A stretch of 28,305 nucleotides of DNA from IMG/VR virus record IMGVR_UViG_3300021085_000159, positions 1-28,305 of that record; one strand, written 5' to 3'. The notes under the pieces are model-generated. The model made no database searches and had not been told where the DNA came from. It was given only the letters and a program-made list of their open reading frames with translations. Position 1 is the first letter of the stretch. Each line of letters opens with the position of its first letter. This DNA comes from a virus. The translations under genes were made by a program, and so were the position numbers. Below, in pieces: positions 6,991 through 23,594 of this stretch.

Positions 6991-8430
6991 TTAGAATTCT
7001 ATAATACATTTAATATCTTCAATTTGTGATGCAGTTCTTGAAATAGGTGCTCTATTTTCTAGGAAGATTAACTGTCCACTTCCTTCAACAAATTCTGAAT
7101 TTTGTACTGCGTCTGACCCATCAGAACTTGAACTACCACCTGTTGGTAAAGTTCCGTTAATTGCTTCTCCAGTATCGGTAAAGTTTCCAAAACCAGTTTT
7201 TCTATTTTGATAATAGTATAATCTTTTATTAGTAGTATCAATTTCTGCAAGGTATGCCTTAGCACCTGAAGTACCACCAGTAAGTAAACAGTCTACATTG
7301 TATGCAGTAACATCAGCACCTGAAGCCATTTGTAAATACTTCAAGCCTTTAAGAGTACCTGCAGTTGCAACTGTAGTAGTTGCCGCTCCATTTTCTTCGG
7401 ATGTATGACCACTATCTGTATTAGTTGCCCTCTTAAAAGGATTCTTAATAATTGATATTTGTCTAAAGTCATTGTTTACAGTTAAGTCTCCACCCTCAGC
7501 TGAATCTAACTGAGCATTAAGTCCGACATAAAATGCACCTAACTCTTTTACTGGATCAAGTCCATGTCCGCCAGAAGGAGAGATAACTGCTCTTGCAGTA
7601 CCACCAGTACCTCCACCACCAGAGATTACAATATCAGCAATAGTATAGTCTGTTCCTTTTGCAGATCCTGATGTACTAGTACCTATTCCAATTGCAGTAA
7701 TTGCTCCACCACTAATAGTAATATCTGCAGCTGCAACTGTTGCACCTGAGCCATCTCCTGTAATAGTAACAGTTGGGGCCGAAGTATAACCAGAACCACC
7801 AGCAGTAACTACTATTCTTTCAATACCAGCCGCTGTTGCTGAATCTCTTGAAGTTTGTTGTGATTCTTGTTGTGGTCTATCAACACTAGTACCTGCTAGA
7901 TCAGGGCTCATTGCTAGTGTTTTTACTGGCATATAAGAATTAGTTAAAAACTTTTCTGAATCTGCTGTAGTAATAGTATACATATATTTCCAAGTATACC
8001 CATCACCTAAAGTAACTGGATCAACACCAGTATGAACTGGCTGTACTGATGTTACTGAGGCCCCGGCCTTGATACATTTATAAACTTTAAATTCTGATTT
8101 AGTCATCACATAAAATTTTTCATCATAAATATCGGAATCTTCTGAATCCCATGCTACGTATTGTGCCCCATCTTCATAATTGTATCTTGGTATAACGTGA
8201 GATACATCACTTGATGTTACTCTTTTAAGACCAAGTATTTGTTGAAATGCCTCATTAGTATCGTTAATATGATCTCCAGGGACTGAAGGTGTAGTGTCAG
8301 AGAGGTCTGATGTTGCATTCGACCAAACATCTGATTTACCGATGGCCAAATAAACACTGGAGCCTGTGACATCTTCCTTGAAATTCTCGGCATTGAGAAC
8401 TCTAAAAGGTGTTGTAATAATTGCTGCCAT
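6991..8430 (-). CDS. gp8: Baseplate wedge protein gp8
   Basis: The protein has 479 residues against 334 in T4. Landmarks of gp8 are clear: IGKSDVWS near residue 30, DGYTWKYMYTI at 143-153 (T4 DGYVWEYLFEI), FRQISIIKNPF at 322-332 (T4 FRQISIITNPL) and GQLIFLENRAPI at 452-463 (T4 GEMIYMENRPPI). gp8 is a baseplate wedge component that dimerises and contacts gp7, gp10 and gp6. The extra length comes from a Gly-rich beta insertion at about 202-290 (GGSGYTSAPTVTI followed by GGGGTGGTA) and a second one at about 380-430 (LLTGGTSGAKAYLAEI). Both resemble modules in neighbouring proteins. The start is ATG with an AGGAT ribosome site. A late promoter octamer lies inside the end of the preceding gene. 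Confidence 0.93.
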   Translation of the reverse strand: MAAIITTPFRVLNAENFKEDVTGSSVYLAIGKSDVWSNATSDLSDTTPSVPGDHINDTNEAFQQILGLKRVTSSDVSHVIPRYNYEDGAQYVAWDSEDSDIYDEKFYVMTKSEFKVYKCIKAGASVTSVQPVHTGVDPVTLGDGYTWKYMYTITTADSEKFLTNSYMPVKTLAMSPDLAGTSVDRPQQESQQTSRDSATAAGIERIVVTAGGSGYTSAPTVTITGDGSGATVAAADITISGGAITAIGIGTSTSGSAKGTDYTIADIVISGGGGTGGTARAVISPSGGHGLDPVKELGAFYVGLNAQLDSAEGGDLTVNNDFRQISIIKNPFKRATNTDSGHTSEENGAATTTVATAGTLKGLKYLQMASGADVTAYNVDCLLTGGTSGAKAYLAEIDTTNKRLYYYQNRKTGFGNFTDTGEAINGTLPTGGSSSSDGSDAVQNSEFVEGSGQLIFLENRAPISRTASQIEDIKCIIEF

Positions 8431-12991: not shown

Positions 12992-14305
12992 TTAATCAAT
13001 AACTAATAAAGTTAGTCCTGCAGTTGGCTGTGAATCGAGTGTTACACTACTTGCGTTATGAGTAAACCCTGTTGTTAACTTCACACCATCCAAAAATACT
13101 AAGCCGCTTCCCCCTGTTGGTCCGTATTCAGTTTTATTATTTTCTGTGGTAAATTGATAAGTTTCTGCAGTACTTGTATTTGCAGCAGACTTAAAACTAT
13201 CACCTACATTTGATCCTTCTGTGCCTAAAGTAGCCGCTCCTGTAGTTACTAAACCATTAAGAATAAAATCGCCATCTAATGTTATAGTGCTTGGCATTCC
13301 AATTAACTTCATAAAGTCACAGAAATCAAATGTTACCCAATCTAAAATGGCACCTAAACCAATAGCATCTAGGAACTTCTTTACCTTCTCTAACCATTCC
13401 ATTATTAAATACTTAGGGAATTCTTCTATAAAATTTGTAGCCCTAGTAATTAATCTTTCTTTTTGTCTCTCTGGATTTTCAAGGTATTCATTTGGTTCAC
13501 CACCTAAAATATCAATAATACTAAATCCTGCAATATTTATTTCTCTTAGTTTATCTATGATCTGTCCTTCAATCTCTGCTCTTAAATCTGCAGGCGCATC
13601 ATCAAGTTGTTGCTGTAAGTCTTCAATAACTTCGTTGATTATTTCTTCAATATCTAAAGTTAATATTGCAGGTAATGAAGGAAGTCCAAGAGCATCCCAT
13701 ATCTCTTTAAACATATCAATCAATTTACCTGCTGCACTATATATGAGTTTAAGTGCACCTTGATTTAGTTGTGACATTATATAATCCCAAATAGATTCGG
13801 CCTTAAATTCTGGAGACTCTAGTGTACTATCTTCACCATATCTTCTTAACTGTTTAGGAAGTAGTGCATCTAGGTCATCTAATTTTTCTGATACCTCTAA
13901 TTTTAATTCGGCCCTATAAGCAGAATCTTCAAATATTCTTAGTATATCTATTTTAAGACCCAGTATAGGAATTATAAAATCTATAGGTATTACTTTTGCA
14001 ATGATCTCTAATATTTTTACTTGAGGAAAAAGATGGTACTCTTCTATGAGTGCAGTAATTCTTCTTTCCCATTCTATCTCTGGTATTTCTATTGTAGGAT
14101 AAATTGGATTAGTTACAGAAATAGGATAGTTACCTAGAGCCTTTTCTACAGTCTCTAAGATTTCCATGATCTTATCTGCTTCATCTTGTTTACCAGATAA
14201 CGCCAAAAGATTTGCAATATTTAATACTTCAGTAAATGTATTTGCCAAATCAGCAGGTTTGGGTAATAAGACCTTAGCGCATGGGATCTCTATTTCTGTG
14301 GTCAT
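12992..14305 (-). CDS. Unrecognised structural protein between gp5 and gp25
   Basis: The protein has 437 residues. It is largely alpha-helical and acidic from 10 to about 330, with many Ile/Leu/Glu-rich segments (EEIINEVIEDLQQQLDDAP around 215-240). It then has a distinct C-terminal beta-type domain (about 340-437) rich in Gly/Thr/Ser, ending in VTLDSQPTAGLTLLVID. The start overlaps the gp5 stop in TAATG. Location inside the hub-and-wedge block strongly suggests a virion baseplate component. T4 has no obvious counterpart between genes 5 and 6, although gp28 of the distal hub is a conceivable functional analogue. I do not recognise the family, so no function is assigned beyond probable baseplate protein. 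Confidence 0.6.
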   Translation of the reverse strand: MTTEIEIPCAKVLLPKPADLANTFTEVLNIANLLALSGKQDEADKIMEILETVEKALGNYPISVTNPIYPTIEIPEIEWERRITALIEEYHLFPQVKILEIIAKVIPIDFIIPILGLKIDILRIFEDSAYRAELKLEVSEKLDDLDALLPKQLRRYGEDSTLESPEFKAESIWDYIMSQLNQGALKLIYSAAGKLIDMFKEIWDALGLPSLPAILTLDIEEIINEVIEDLQQQLDDAPADLRAEIEGQIIDKLREINIAGFSIIDILGGEPNEYLENPERQKERLITRATNFIEEFPKYLIMEWLEKVKKFLDAIGLGAILDWVTFDFCDFMKLIGMPSTITLDGDFILNGLVTTGAATLGTEGSNVGDSFKSAANTSTAETYQFTTENNKTEYGPTGGSGLVFLDGVKLTTGFTHNASSVTLDSQPTAGLTLLVID

Positions 14306-18755: not shown

Positions 18756-19202
18756 ATGGCTTATAGAGGGAAATATACAATTAAACGTAAAGATAAATAT
18801 CTGGGTGATGCATCCAGTGTAGTTTATCGTTCATTATGGGAAAGACAAGCATTCAAGTGGTGTGAAAGTAATCCTAAAGTAAAAAGATGGAATAGTGAAG
18901 AGATAGTTATTCCCTATAAGTGTAAGACCGATAACAAGCTGCATAGATATTATGTAGACTTACTTATTGAATTAGATAATAAAGAAATCATTTTGGTTGA
19001 AATTAAACCAAAGAAAGAAACATCACCTCCTAAAAAGCCCTCTCGCAAAACTAAAAGATATATCAATGAGGTTATGACATATATTAAGAACCAATCTAAA
19101 TGGGAAGCAGCACAACAATACGCAGATCATAAAGGTTGGAAGTTTCAAGTGTGGACCGAAGATACTTTAGGCAATCTAGGTATCAAACTACTGAAAAGTT
19201 GA
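18756..19202 (+). CDS. gp4: Head completion protein gp4 (PD-(D/E)XK nuclease-like)
   Basis: The protein has 148 residues (T4 gp4 about 150). Conserved blocks line up with T4: KDKYLGDASSVVYRSLWER (12-30; T4 KYVGNPSLIVYRSLWER), WNSEEIVIPY (45-54), HRYYVDLLIEL (63-73) and LVEIKPKKETSPPKKPSRK (80-98). Asp68, Glu82 and Lys84 in D-x13-E-I-K, with Glu29, match a restriction-endonuclease-type active site. gp4 (50) acts at the final step of head filling, before tail joining, and its fold suggests trimming of packaged DNA ends. It is the first gene of the plus-strand late block, with only a weak ribosome site, and its stop is one base from the next late promoter. Confidence 0.95.
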   Translation: MAYRGKYTIKRKDKYLGDASSVVYRSLWERQAFKWCESNPKVKRWNSEEIVIPYKCKTDNKLHRYYVDLLIELDNKEIILVEIKPKKETSPPKKPSRKTKRYINEVMTYIKNQSKWEAAQQYADHKGWKFQVWTEDTLGNLGIKLLKS

Positions 19203-19231: not shown

Positions 19232-19825
19232 ATGGCATCATTGTTCGATACATTACAGGCCCAGGCTTTCAGAGCAGGTATTACTGCACGTACTAAAAAG
19301 TCCCAGAAGTGGTTTCGTGATAAAATTGAAGATATGAAAATGCCGAGTAGACAAAGTCTACTTAAAGATGATGCATTAGACCCTACAACAAGAGAGTTAA
19401 GAGGTTCAATGTATATGTATTTTTATGATCCAAAACATAAAGCAACATTACCTTATTATGATAGATTCCCTTTAGTTCTTTTAATAGAGCCAAGGAAAAA
19501 TGGCTTTTTAGGATTAAACTTACACTATCTAAGACCAGATATCCGTGCAAAGTTTCTTGATGAGTTAATGAAACTATCTCCAGCAAAAGTAAAAGATACA
19601 TCACGATTAATAAAAGCAAGATATGATCTTCTAACCTCTACAAGAAAATATAAAGAATTTAGGCCATGTCTTAAAATGTATTTAAGCGATCACGTAAAAT
19701 CTAGGTTAGTAAGAGTACCTATGAGTGAATGGGAAATAGCAATATTCTTACCAACTGAACAATTTAGAAAATCAGGTAAGAGTAAGGTTTGGGCAGAATC
19801 AATTAAAATTGCGAGACAGACATGA
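19232..19825 (+). CDS. Conserved phage protein of unknown function between gp4 and gp54
   Basis: The protein has 197 residues, basic, starting MASLFDTLQAQAFRAGI. Notable parts are ARTKKSQKWFRDKI (19-32), GSMYMYFYDPKHKATLPYYD (57-76), FPLVLLIEPRKNGFLGLNLH (77-96) and a basic C-terminus. The YFYDPK...LPYYD.FPL pattern is one I associate with conserved virion-region genes of large marine myoviruses, but I know of no function. It has its own late promoter and a clear AGGAG ribosome site, and its stop overlaps the next start (ATGA). A structural or head-tail joining role is plausible from context only. Confidence 0.65.
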   Translation: MASLFDTLQAQAFRAGITARTKKSQKWFRDKIEDMKMPSRQSLLKDDALDPTTRELRGSMYMYFYDPKHKATLPYYDRFPLVLLIEPRKNGFLGLNLHYLRPDIRAKFLDELMKLSPAKVKDTSRLIKARYDLLTSTRKYKEFRPCLKMYLSDHVKSRLVRVPMSEWEIAIFLPTEQFRKSGKSKVWAESIKIARQT

Positions 19826-20457
19826 ATGTAGATAAACTAAAATCAACAATTGCAAAACGTGGTGGTATTGCCAGACTGAATAGATTTAAGGTAATCTTAA
19901 CACCTCCAAAACAAAGTTTATTTAATATAGACCCAGAGGCAATTTTCACCAGTCTTATATCTGGCGATGGTGTTAATGTTAAAAGTCTAATTAATGACCC
20001 TCGTGATATTTCTATGTTGTGCACAGGAGCTCAGATTCCTGGAAGAGAATTTTCAACAGATGAAATAACAATGGAAAAACAAACCGTAAAAATGCCTTAC
20101 GGATTTATTGATCCAGATGTAGAATTAAAGTTTATGTGTACAAATGATATGTACATGAAAAAGATGTTTGATGGTTGGTCGAGATCAGTAATAGATTCAG
20201 AGACATATACATTAGGCTATAAAGATGATTATACAAGCGATATAATCATTCAACAATTAAATATGGACAATAAAGTCACATATGGTGCAAAGTTAATTAA
20301 TGCATATCCAGTAGCTGTCGGCTCAATAGATTATGAATCTGGGTCGGAAGAAGTTGCTGAATTTACAGTATCATTTGCATATGATAAATATGAATTGGAA
20401 GGTGGATTAAGTTCTACCCTCTCTGGAGTAACAGAAGCTCTAGGCGTTTTAGGATAA
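19822..20457 (+). CDS. gp54: Baseplate tail tube initiator, gp54-like
   Basis: The protein has 211 residues (T4 gp54 320, tail tube gp19 163). It has the tube-protein pattern: NRFKVILTPP at the start of the first strand, LCTGAQIPGREFSTDEITM (70-88), then VKMPYGFIDPDVELKFMCT (92-110), MKKMFDGWSRSVID (116-129) and the terminal SEEVAEFTVSFAYDKYEL. The order IPGR, F-x-D-x-W and a final acidic beta strand fits gp54 and gp19, which share a fold. Position between gp4 and gp26, away from a sheath gene, favours the initiator rather than the main tube protein. The start overlaps the preceding stop in ATGA. If a separate 160-residue tube gene follows a sheath gene elsewhere, the gp54 call stands. Confidence 0.72.
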   Translation: MNVDKLKSTIAKRGGIARLNRFKVILTPPKQSLFNIDPEAIFTSLISGDGVNVKSLINDPRDISMLCTGAQIPGREFSTDEITMEKQTVKMPYGFIDPDVELKFMCTNDMYMKKMFDGWSRSVIDSETYTLGYKDDYTSDIIIQQLNMDNKVTYGAKLINAYPVAVGSIDYESGSEEVAEFTVSFAYDKYELEGGLSSTLSGVTEALGVLG

Positions 20458-20481: not shown

Positions 20482-21204
20482 ATGGCGTTACCAGTAGTGA
20501 ATTCCTCTCGTTATGAGGTAGAAATTCCAAGTATGGGAGTTACAGTTGAGTACAGACCATTCTTGGTAAAAGAAGAAAAAGTTTTAATGATTGCATTGGA
20601 ATCTAAAGATCAGAATCATGTTCTTAGAGCCATTAAAAATGTATTAAAATCATGTATCTTTGATGAAGTAGATGTTAATAATTTTGCATCTTTTGATTTA
20701 GAGTATATCTTCTTAAAGTTGAGGCAAAAGTCAGTTGGGGAAACAGTAGATTTAAAACTTAACTGTCAGAATGAAGAGTGTAATAATAAGATTGATCATA
20801 CAGTAAACTTAGAAGAAATTAAGCTTACTGGTTTAGATAAAGAAAGAATCGTTATGATTACAGAAGAGGTCGGTATTCAGTTTGATTACCCATCACTTGA
20901 TACTTTGGCTGGACTTAAAATAGATGAAAAGTCTAATCAAGATCAACAGTTACAAGAGACAATGAAGTTGATTAGAAGTTCAATTACAAATATCTTTGAT
21001 GATGATAATGTATATCCATCTAATGAAAGTACAGATGAAGAACTTAATGATTTTTTAGATGGGCTTAATTCAGAACAGTTTAAGAAGATAGCAGACTGGT
21101 TTGGTAATACACCTTCATTAGTAAAGAATGTAGAATATAAGTGTGGTAAGTGTGGCAACGAGAATAGTTTGGAGTTAAGAGGTCTCCAAAGTTTTTTTAC
21201 TTAG
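20482..21204 (+). CDS. gp26: Baseplate hub/tail assembly protein gp26
   Basis: The zero-frame product has 240 residues (T4 gp26 208) and belongs to the T4 baseplate gp26 family. Seen are the N-terminal PSMGVTVEYRPFLVKEEKVL (16-35), a helical region, and four cysteines in two pairs: Cys95/Cys100 (NCQNEECNNK) and Cys221/Cys224 (YKCGKCGNEN), which look like a zinc-binding knuckle. The terminus LRGLQSFF is a motif conserved at the end of this family as I recall it. In T4, gp26 and gp51 act in hub assembly and are coded upstream of the tape measure gp29, as here. The codons for the two final Phe residues form a T-TTT-TTT slippery heptamer, so a fraction of ribosomes probably continue into the gp51-like tail. 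Confidence 0.88.
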   Translation: MALPVVNSSRYEVEIPSMGVTVEYRPFLVKEEKVLMIALESKDQNHVLRAIKNVLKSCIFDEVDVNNFASFDLEYIFLKLRQKSVGETVDLKLNCQNEECNNKIDHTVNLEEIKLTGLDKERIVMITEEVGIQFDYPSLDTLAGLKIDEKSNQDQQLQETMKLIRSSITNIFDDDNVYPSNESTDEELNDFLDGLNSEQFKKIADWFGNTPSLVKNVEYKCGKCGNENSLELRGLQSFFT

Positions 21205-21233
21205 CCCTGGCTCATGATTCCTTAGTGAATCAT
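21177..21233 (+). promoter_or_regulatory. Candidate programmed -1 frameshift signal of gp26
   Basis: Seven consecutive T at 21192-21198 sit in the exact X-XXY-YYZ phase of the gp26 frame (agT TTT TTT act tag). The zero-frame stop follows after one codon. A Shine-Dalgarno-like AAGAGGT at 21177-21183 lies nine bases upstream. A perfect 7-bp hairpin (ATGATTC 21214-21220, six-base loop, GAATCAT 21227-21233) lies downstream. These three parts are the standard layout of bacterial -1 signals, although the hairpin spacing of 15 bases is longer than usual. Confidence 0.7.
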
Positions 21234-21395
21234 TATAAAACAAACTTTGCTATGATGCAACATCATAACTATAGTTTAACAGAGCTAGATAATATGATAC
21301 CATGGGAAAGAGAAATTTATGTGGCTTTATTGCAGAATCATATTAAAGAAGAAAATGATAGGCAAAAATCACAAGAAAGAAAAATGAGGAAATAG
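21198..21395 (+). CDS. gp51: gp51-like C-terminal extension reached by -1 frameshift
   Basis: After a -1 shift on the heptamer, translation continues for 65 codons to TAG at 21393-21395, giving a 304-residue gp26 fusion. The extension (YLALAHDSLVNHYKTNFAMM, then YSLTELDNMIPWEREIYVAL) ends in a charged helix KEENDRQKSQERKMRK. The MIPWEREIY...LL..EE pattern resembles the helical tail of phage tail assembly chaperone fusions and what is annotated as gp51 in marine T4-like phages. The frame is open back to about 21168 but has no start codon with a ribosome site. The first in-frame ATG (21252) would yield only 47 residues and lacks a Shine-Dalgarno. This argues for frameshifting rather than independent initiation. 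Confidence 0.7.
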   Translation, partial: YLALAHDSLVNHYKTNFAMMQHHNYSLTELDNMIPWEREIYVALLQNHIKEENDRQKSQERKMRK

Positions 21396-21397
21396 AA

Positions 21398-21727
21398 ATG
21401 GGAGAAGATGAAATAAAGGCTAGCGGACATCATCCAGCAGATACTAATGGTGATGGAAAGGTAAGCAGAAAAGAACAAGAAATGTATTTAGAGTTTAAGA
21501 GAAAAGAACTTGAAGATGCAGATGCTATGAGAGATGCTCAAAGAAAGATGGCATGGTTTGCTCTCGGCGGTATGTTACTATATCCCTTTGCAGTAGTTGT
21601 TGCAGTATTATCTGGGTTAGATCAAGCAAGTAAAATTCTCGGAGACATGGCAGCAACATATTTTGTTGCAGTTGCTGGTATTGTAGCCGCATTCTTTGGA
21701 TCACAAGCATTTGGGAATAAGAAATAA
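21398..21727 (+). CDS. Small membrane protein with an EF-hand-type loop
   Basis: The protein has 109 residues. Residues 15-26 (DTNGDGKVSRKE) make a textbook calcium-binding loop with acidic or polar residues at 1, 3, 5, 9 and Glu at 12. A charged helix with DADAMRDAQRK follows, then two hydrophobic segments at about 51-73 (MAWFALGGMLLYPFAVVVAV) and 80-103 (MAATYFVAVAGIVAAFFGSQ). A two-helix membrane hairpin with a soluble N-terminus is predicted. The gene starts two bases after the gp51-like stop with a GAGG ribosome site and overlaps the next gene in TAATG. Similar genes occur near gp26 in marine T4-like phages as far as I recall, without known function. Holin-like, virion membrane-piercing or assembly roles are all open. 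Confidence 0.7.
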   Translation: MGEDEIKASGHHPADTNGDGKVSRKEQEMYLEFKRKELEDADAMRDAQRKMAWFALGGMLLYPFAVVVAVLSGLDQASKILGDMAATYFVAVAGIVAAFFGSQAFGNKK

Positions 21728-21845: not shown

Positions 21846-23594
21846 ATGGCCGATAATAAAAAACTAAGAGAAAAAGCTAAAAAAGAAGCAGCTGCTATAA
21901 AGCAAAAGCAACAAGATTTTCAAAATGAAAGAAAAGGTAGGATGGTTAAGGTTGCTGAAGAACATAAATCTCTCTTAGAAAGAGCCAATAAAGCCATACA
22001 AGATGGTAACACTGAACAGGCTAAAGGTTTAAAAGAAAGAGCTTCACATTTTGCAAAAGTTCTTAATGGCACTGGCCGTCAACTTAGTAATAGTTATTTA
22101 AAAAGTATACTAGAATCGTCTGAACAACAAGACCTAGACTCAAAACAAAATTTAGATTCAGTCAGACATGCAATCGAAAAACAAACAGAAGAGTTTGAAA
22201 AAAGTAGCAAAAAAGCAGCCGCATTTGCACAAGCACAACCTCTTCTAAAACCATTAGAAGCACTTAATAAAAAAATAGAACTATCAAATAAGGCAGAAGT
22301 TGCAAGAGAAAAACTTGGCCAAAATGCTCTAGGTAAAAGACTGAGAGACTTAGGAAGTGCATTTGGTAAAGCCGCTTCAAAGTCTGATATGCTTAGAGCC
22401 AAAGAACTTCAAGAACAATATGCAATTGCAGATCAAAATTTACAAAAGGCAATGGCCGGTGGTAATGATGAAGAGATAAAACTTGCTCAAGAACAAGTTG
22501 ATAGACTTGATGAGACTGTAAAATCTGAAGAGGATAGAAGAGAACAGACTAAGAAGGCCGATGAAGCAAATAGTTTATTAGCAAGAATTAGTACTGGAGT
22601 TGAAGATTTCGGTAGTAAGCTAGGTGGGTTCTTAAAAGGTGGTAGTATCTTGGGTGGACTTATAGGTGCTGCTCTTGCATTATTCTCACCTGAAAAGTTT
22701 GCTGAAATCGTTAGAGCAGCAATTGAGAAAGTAATGACAGTAGTTGATTTTATAAAAGATTTAATAGAAGGAGACTTTACAAATGCTTGGGAAACTTTTA
22801 AGAATAATTTAGGAACATTTGCAATTATTATAGGTGGTTTATTACTTTATCTTGGGCCGGGTTTAATAACAGCAGCTAGTAGTTTATTTGGAGTAGTAAA
22901 AACAGTAGGACTCTTTTTAAGATTTACTGCTTTCCCAGCACTAATAACTGGCCTAACTTCACTTGGAACTATGATGGGATTTACTGCAGGAACTATAGGT
23001 GTAATCGCCGCCCCTGTAATCGCAATCATTGCGGCACTTGGTCTTATATATTTCGGATTTAAAAAATTACAAGATTCCCTGGGCCCAGGTGCAGGTATAT
23101 TAGATACTTTAAAAGTTGCAGGTCTTTACTTCTTAGACGCACTATCATTTATCGCTAATGCAATTACTTTCTTACCTCGTAAGATATTTGAATTTCTTGG
23201 AGGTGGTAGATTAGCAAGATGGCTATTCGGTGATGGTGCTGGTGATATGGCAGATCAGTTTCTAGGTGAAGGTTTAGACACAAATAGAGGCCGTACAGCA
23301 CAGAATGAAATTAGACAAAGAAATGAAGAAGAGGCCGAGATAGCTAGATTACAAGCTTTAGAAGATGCTAGAAATGACCAGACAGCCGCAACTTTAACTG
23401 ATCCAAATAATGTTGCAAACTTAGGTGCAGTTCCTAATATTGATATGGCTGCACTTAATGATGCATTGGCCCAAGCAGGTGGTGGTGCCACAGTAGGTGT
23501 TAGTACTAATAATATTGCACAAGATAACAAACAAATTACTCAAGTCATAGATCAAGGTATAAGTCAAAGCAATTCTGCTCTGGCAATAAACTAA
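21846..23594 (+). CDS. Probable tape measure protein, gp29-like
   Basis: The protein has 582 residues, close to T4 gp29 (590). The first 240 residues are almost entirely charged helix of coiled-coil type (KKLREKAKKEAAAIKQKQQD, EEIKLAQEQVDRLDETVK). Residues about 255-282 and 321-405 are hydrophobic and Gly/Ala-rich (IIIGGLLLYLGPGLITAA, IGVIAAPVIAIIAALGLIYF), as in the membrane-inserting segments of tape measures. The C-terminal third is polar, ending in Asn/Gln/Ser-rich sequence. It follows gp26/gp51 as gp29 does in T4 (with gp27 and gp28 relocated). The tape measure fixes tail length and enters the cell at ejection. At about 1.5 angstrom per residue it would predict a tail near 90 nm. The start is ATG with an AAGGA ribosome site. 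Family identity is by architecture, not by aligned motifs. Confidence 0.68.
   Translation: MADNKKLREKAKKEAAAIKQKQQDFQNERKGRMVKVAEEHKSLLERANKAIQDGNTEQAKGLKERASHFAKVLNGTGRQLSNSYLKSILESSEQQDLDSKQNLDSVRHAIEKQTEEFEKSSKKAAAFAQAQPLLKPLEALNKKIELSNKAEVAREKLGQNALGKRLRDLGSAFGKAASKSDMLRAKELQEQYAIADQNLQKAMAGGNDEEIKLAQEQVDRLDETVKSEEDRREQTKKADEANSLLARISTGVEDFGSKLGGFLKGGSILGGLIGAALALFSPEKFAEIVRAAIEKVMTVVDFIKDLIEGDFTNAWETFKNNLGTFAIIIGGLLLYLGPGLITAASSLFGVVKTVGLFLRFTAFPALITGLTSLGTMMGFTAGTIGVIAAPVIAIIAALGLIYFGFKKLQDSLGPGAGILDTLKVAGLYFLDALSFIANAITFLPRKIFEFLGGGRLARWLFGDGAGDMADQFLGEGLDTNRGRTAQNEIRQRNEEEAEIARLQALEDARNDQTAATLTDPNNVANLGAVPNIDMAALNDALAQAGGGATVGVSTNNIAQDNKQITQVIDQGISQSNSALAIN

Follow-up and report, generated by a model that had tools for sequence, protein, structure and literature searches.

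gp26 and gp51 of an uncultured marine T4-like phage as the probable short and long products of one frameshifted tail assembly chaperone gene

In phage lambda, the tail assembly chaperones G and GT are made from one open reading frame, in which a -1 shift near the end gives a short and a long product encoded beside the tape measure gene, and a 2016 review still listed T4 as the exception (PMC5009743). The question raised by the viral DNA analysed here, a stretch of 28,305 nucleotides from IMG/VR record IMGVR_UViG_3300021085_000159 (henceforth the window), is whether its gp26 gene and the gp51-like frame overlapping the end of that gene form a pair of the same kind. The evidence of sequence, reading frames, conservation, homology and predicted fold makes it very probable that this phage expresses both gp26 and gp51 from a single tail assembly chaperone gene, via a -1 frameshift. 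The features of the locus are collected in Table 1.

Table 1. Features of the putative chaperone locus and its neighbours, in positions of the window.
Feature	Position	Strand	Evidence or remark
Tail tube gene	19822-20457		upstream of gp26
gp26 / TAC-N (G-like) ORF, 240 aa	20482..21204	+	PF12322 2.7e-58; PHROG 150 2.4e-62
First Cys pair C95-x4-C100, likely zinc-binding Cys4 site	20764..20781	+	invariant among close relatives
Second Cys pair C221-x2-C224	21142..21153	+	invariant among close relatives
SD-like AAGAGGT, probable stimulator	21177..21183	+	anti-SD pairing vs synonymous null
Slippery heptamer T_TTT_TTT	21192..21198	+	sequence; T_TTT_TTY kept in 184/201 distinct junctions
-1 frame extension, gp51/T-like domain, 65 aa; gp26-gp51 fusion (TAC-NC)	21198..21395	+	PHROG 634 5.5e-30
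gp26 0-frame stop TAG, one codon past heptamer	21202..21204	+	same spacing in 163/184 relatives
7-bp hairpin	21214..21233	+	perfect stem, not conserved, probably incidental
109-aa ORF between chaperone and tape measure	21398..21727	+	EF-hand-like DTNGDGKVSRKEQ, hydrophobic segments
Probable tape measure protein	21846..23594	+	weak PHROG 1533 match 7e-4, position

The shorter product belongs to the T4-type gp26 family as judged by its profile, because the Pfam search with PF12322 gives 197.7 bits against a cut-off of 24.5 over positions 3-218 of 219. An AlphaFold2 model of gp26 (pLDDT 85) was compared with known structures by VIA-align, which places residues 1-95 on four best neighbours, all of phage or prophage type and one of them the HK97 tail assembly chaperone: 3fgx (Z 8.8), HK97 TAC 2ob9 (Z 7.1), YqbN 3klu (Z 6.5) and 5ir0 (Z 4.7). 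The next row is unrelated, at Z 3.0; 3fgx and YqbN we take to be prophage chaperone-like proteins. Foldseek on the same model returned weak E-values only, which are not significant alone, and among PDB sequences the gp26 profile found no match. The N-terminal part, residues 1-90, is thus modelled as a tail assembly chaperone fold, which is supportive of the assignment and not proof of it. The original prediction had also placed a Cys4 knuckle in gp26, and both pairs are indeed read in the sequence; in the alignment Cys95, 100, 221 and 224 show no variation among close relatives, the second pair being no longer invariant once cyanophages are included. The site is likely to bind zinc, and VIA-align gives a weak match to the ZPR1 zinc domain over residues 91-235 (Z 3.0).

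At the 3' end of gp26, the codons from 21190 read AGT TTT TTT ACT TAG, which places the heptamer in the correct phase relative to the gp26 frame with a stop one codon on, exactly as had been proposed. The first codon after a slip would be TAC (21198-21200), and the -1 frame runs from there to a stop at 21393-21395, its 65 residues including the motif PWEREIY. This -1 product matches the gp51 family profile (PHROG 634) over positions 58-120 of 121 and is assigned to that family by homology; the domain is modelled as helical (pLDDT 78), and Foldseek found no PDB fold match for it. The preceding stop in the -1 frame lies at 21165, and no ATG, GTG or TTG occurs between it and GTG 21225, the first ATG being at 21252. 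Since no start codon stands before GTG 21225, ordinary initiation cannot reach the conserved YLALAHDSL block, and the claim that this frame lacks a start of its own is borne out. No second gp51 or gp26 was found elsewhere in the virus record, although its 28 kb may be only a fragment.

The check that the original prediction called for, conservation of the heptamer and of the -1 frame among relatives, was made on gp26 loci gathered from IMG/VR and from named phages, in which every 3' end was read to give 201 distinct junctions. An in-frame T_TTT_TTY is present in 184 of them, including those of cyanophages, Pelagibacter phage Mosig, Sinorhizobium phiM12, Stenotrophomonas Yut3, Aeromonas phiAS5, Vibrio K566 and Vibrio VmeM-32. 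In 163 of these 184 a single codon separates the heptamer from the stop, and in the remainder the spacing is zero to eight codons; the -1 frame continues for 56-73 residues wherever the junction sequence reaches the frame end. A phased slippery site near the 3' end is therefore accompanied by a conserved overlapping-frame extension, as far as can be read from the junctions, and the profile matches together with this degree of heptamer retention are confirmed to lie far beyond chance.

The codons themselves point the same way. Among 42 clusters at 60% identity, drawn from junctions with the heptamer, every one (42/42) has TTT as its first Phe codon, while the TTT share in the rest of the gene is 63% (log10 P about -8.5 to -10.4). 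The preceding codon invariably has T in its third position, whether it encodes Ser, Asn, Asp or Ala (log10 P about -10.9). These P values treat the clusters as independent, which is only partly true. Other conserved Phe columns of gp26 mix TTT and TTC. Sampling by heptamer does not create the pattern in other phages, because all 17 junctions that depart from it fall in, or group with, Ackermannviridae. The choice of codons at the heptamer thus goes far beyond the amino-acid requirement, a case of strong codon-level conservation supported by these counts.

Two further elements had been pointed out around the heptamer. The SD-like AAGAGGT is present 8 nt upstream of it; its anti-SD pairing exceeds a synonymous null in the 42 cluster representatives, with 0/500 shuffles as strong, and by this measure the element is under selection. 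The perfect 7-bp hairpin, in which ATGATTC (21214-21220) pairs with GAATCAT (21227-21233) starting 15 nt past the heptamer, is equally present in the window, but it was rejected as a conserved stimulator: only 59.8% of cells are paired, covariation is little above shuffles, and RNAalifold returned no consensus structure. Folds downstream of the slip site show, on average, no more than mild stability (mean z -1.66), and the window's hairpin is probably incidental.

In the proposed mechanism, most ribosomes would terminate at TAG 21202, yielding the 240-aa gp26 (TAC-N, G-like). A minority would pause by anti-SD pairing with AAGAGGT and move back by one base on U_UUU_UUU, a site at which the two Phe tRNAs would be able to re-pair, and would then translate 65 more codons to give a gp26-gp51 fusion of ~304 aa (TAC-NC, GT-like). 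By analogy with lambda, the common gp26 part would coat the tape measure protein and the rarer gp51 tail would recruit tail tube subunits. The slipping, its efficiency and the assembly roles are inferred, the roles from position, fold and lambda.

The gene order agrees with such roles in outline. The locus lies between the tail tube gene and a probable tape measure gene, the latter being a candidate with a weak match, and the chaperone precedes the tape measure as expected; in correction of the original prediction, the two are not directly adjacent, since the 109-aa ORF intervenes. The EF-hand-like loop of that ORF gives a Pfam EF-hand_5 match below the cut-off. Elsewhere in the window, the homologue of head-closure gp4 (18756-19202) matches a TnsA-like endonuclease N-terminal domain (Pfam 4.7e-19), and a 437-aa ORF on the minus strand (12995-14305), within the run of baseplate genes, has no PHROG match.

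The two domains were also compared with the T4-type proteins. Residues 1-201 of T4 gp51 (249 aa) cover the gp26 family profile in full (4e-52); T4 gp51 also matches T4 gp26 itself in BLASTP (2e-6), and its C-terminus aligns with the -1 product of the window (7.7e-5). An HMM built from the fusions of frameshift phages only recovers gp51 of Aeromonas 31 (3e-19), Krischvirus (1e-15) and T4 (2e-12) with both parts covered; a single-sequence hhalign comparison of T4 gp51 with the gp26 alignment had covered no more than a short Cys region, whereas the fusion HMM resolved both parts. By these alignments, T4 gp51 consists of a gp26-like domain followed, in the same frame, by the domain that the window encodes in its -1 frame. 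The proposal that T4-type gp26 and gp51 are a pair of the G/GT kind therefore stands, T4 gp51 carrying a full gp26-like domain plus a T-like domain. It is well supported by homology that T4-type phages devote two paralogous genes to the short and the long chaperone, whereas the window phage would obtain both from one gene by frameshifting.

The T4 gp26 gene ends in AGA GGC CTC AAA GAG TTC TTT (GLKEFF), with the heptamer broken, and genes 26 and 51 are divergent in T4 and Aeromonas 31. In a tree whose root is arbitrary and which has several long branches, T4-type gp26 and gp51 proteins form a common group (98/94) in which gp51 is a single clade (99/97), the pattern that one duplication predicts. 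In RB43, gp51 and a gp26-like gene follow one another on the same strand and overlap at their ends (1501-2794 of the RB43 locus sequence), unlike the divergent pair of T4. T4 gp28 was considered as a further gp26 paralogue and set aside, PHROG 1140 giving a weak match to T4 gp26 (9e-4) and profile comparison finding nothing.

Other explanations of the junction have to be weighed against a ribosomal shift. If gp51 were a separate small gene, reached by re-initiation or a cryptic start past the gp26 stop, the poly-T run would be incidental; such a gene is suggested by the CDS annotated in P-SSM2, phiM12 and Mosig, by an ATG near the stop in a few relatives (10/184), and by the TAATG overlap in Vibrio phage YC, Ag3 and Limestone. 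An early -1 start codon is nevertheless absent in 159/184 relatives, leaving most junctions without a start before the conserved block, and in 34 the -1 frame is closed no more than 12 nt upstream. Nor would a separate gene need the fixed third positions of the heptamer codons, and T4-type gp51 is a full-length fusion, all of which makes a separate gp51 very unlikely.

A change of frame by RNA polymerase slipping on the T run, instead of by the ribosome, is less likely still: the window does carry seven T in a row, but in 132/184 relatives the run is limited to six T and then a C (TTTTTTC), which argues against transcript slippage, and ribosomal slipping fits both the selected SD-like element and the phased heptamer with its one-codon distance from the stop. 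That the -1 frame is a decayed remnant, giving a fusion without function, has the least probability of all. The -1 domain is invariant at 19 positions across 16 IMG/VR sequences, is intact in all the non-Ackermann relatives seen, and is contained in T4 gp51, which is essential (PMC3004832). The frameshifted G/GT-type chaperone pair is the reading upheld by codon-level conservation, the modelled chaperone fold and the architecture of T4 gp51.

The exceptions lie in or near Ackermannviridae. The 17 of 201 junctions without T_TTT_TTY (Kuttervirus, Taipeivirus, Agtrevirus, Limestonevirus, Miltonvirus, Kuja, D504 and YC) carry N_NTT_TTY or a close variant in the heptamer's place, for example A_ATT_TTC-type, G_GTT_TTC, G_GCT_TTC (YC), C_CTT_TTT or A_CTT_TTC, followed by one codon and a stop, and their -1 frame is open and gp51-like. 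YC, Ag3 and Limestone have TAATG at the stop, but Kuttervirus, Taipeivirus and Miltonvirus lack it; the Ag3 record states that no ribosome-binding site is identifiable for the second ORF. Since SH-Ab 15599 groups with the exceptions and still has T_TTT_TTT, the heptamer was probably altered within this lineage. The heptamer being replaced with the one-codon spacing and the open -1 frame kept, a third route to the chaperone pair may tentatively be suggested in Ackermannviridae and near relatives, involving either a slip of only the A-site tRNA or stop-start coupling, although the odds are somewhat against it.

The pairing of T4 genes 26 and 51 is, according to papers that cite it, already published: Vladimirov, Gautam & Davidson (Virology 2022) describe the gp26/gp51 chaperone pair in T4-like phages (cited in PMC10885494 and PMC12846349), the PRFect paper citing it for a short gene and a longer fused gene in some T4-like phages (PMC10885494) and the Adele paper for poly-T slip sites in their TAC-N genes (PMC12846349). 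The window adds a well-supported further case. Sullivan et al. 2010 reported cyanophage gp51 lacking about 200 N-terminal residues, at ~20% of the T4 length, and gp51 as absent in phage Aeh1, in a text in which the word "frameshift" does not occur and no frameshift explanation is given (PMC3037559). Frameshifting would explain both the truncated-looking cyanophage gp51 and the seemingly missing gp51 of Aeh1, because the rest of the long product is gp26 in frameshift phages. The separate gp51 CDS given in many public records is probably not a gene in its own right. In P-SSM2 (AY939844, gp51 at 7217-7390), phiM12 and Mosig, the gp51 CDS starts after or at the slip site, and the S-CAM1 and S-WAM1 records have no gp51 annotation; errors of annotation are the probable reason in all these cases.

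Compared with lambda G/GT, the window phage shares one ORF, a probable -1 shift near the 3' end, two predicted products and a place near the tape measure gene; it differs in that the lambda heptamer is G_GGA_AAG and that of the window phage and its relatives is T_TTT_TTY, and in that its gp26 has an extra Cys4-bearing region past the TAC-like N-domain. HK97 TAC (2ob9) resembles gp26 in the predicted fold of residues 1-85, but is not found by the gp26 sequence profile and, as a chain of 107 residues, has no counterpart of the C-terminal Cys4. T4 gp26 and gp51 have domains homologous to those of the window, and the T4 gp26 gene still ends in GAG TTC TTT, a broken heptamer; the difference is that T4 uses two divergently transcribed paralogous genes, with gp51 fused in frame and no frameshift needed. 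Compared with the T4-like phages of Vladimirov 2022, as the citing papers present them, the genes are apparently the same, and the window represents a further uncultured marine member that would use the frameshift route.
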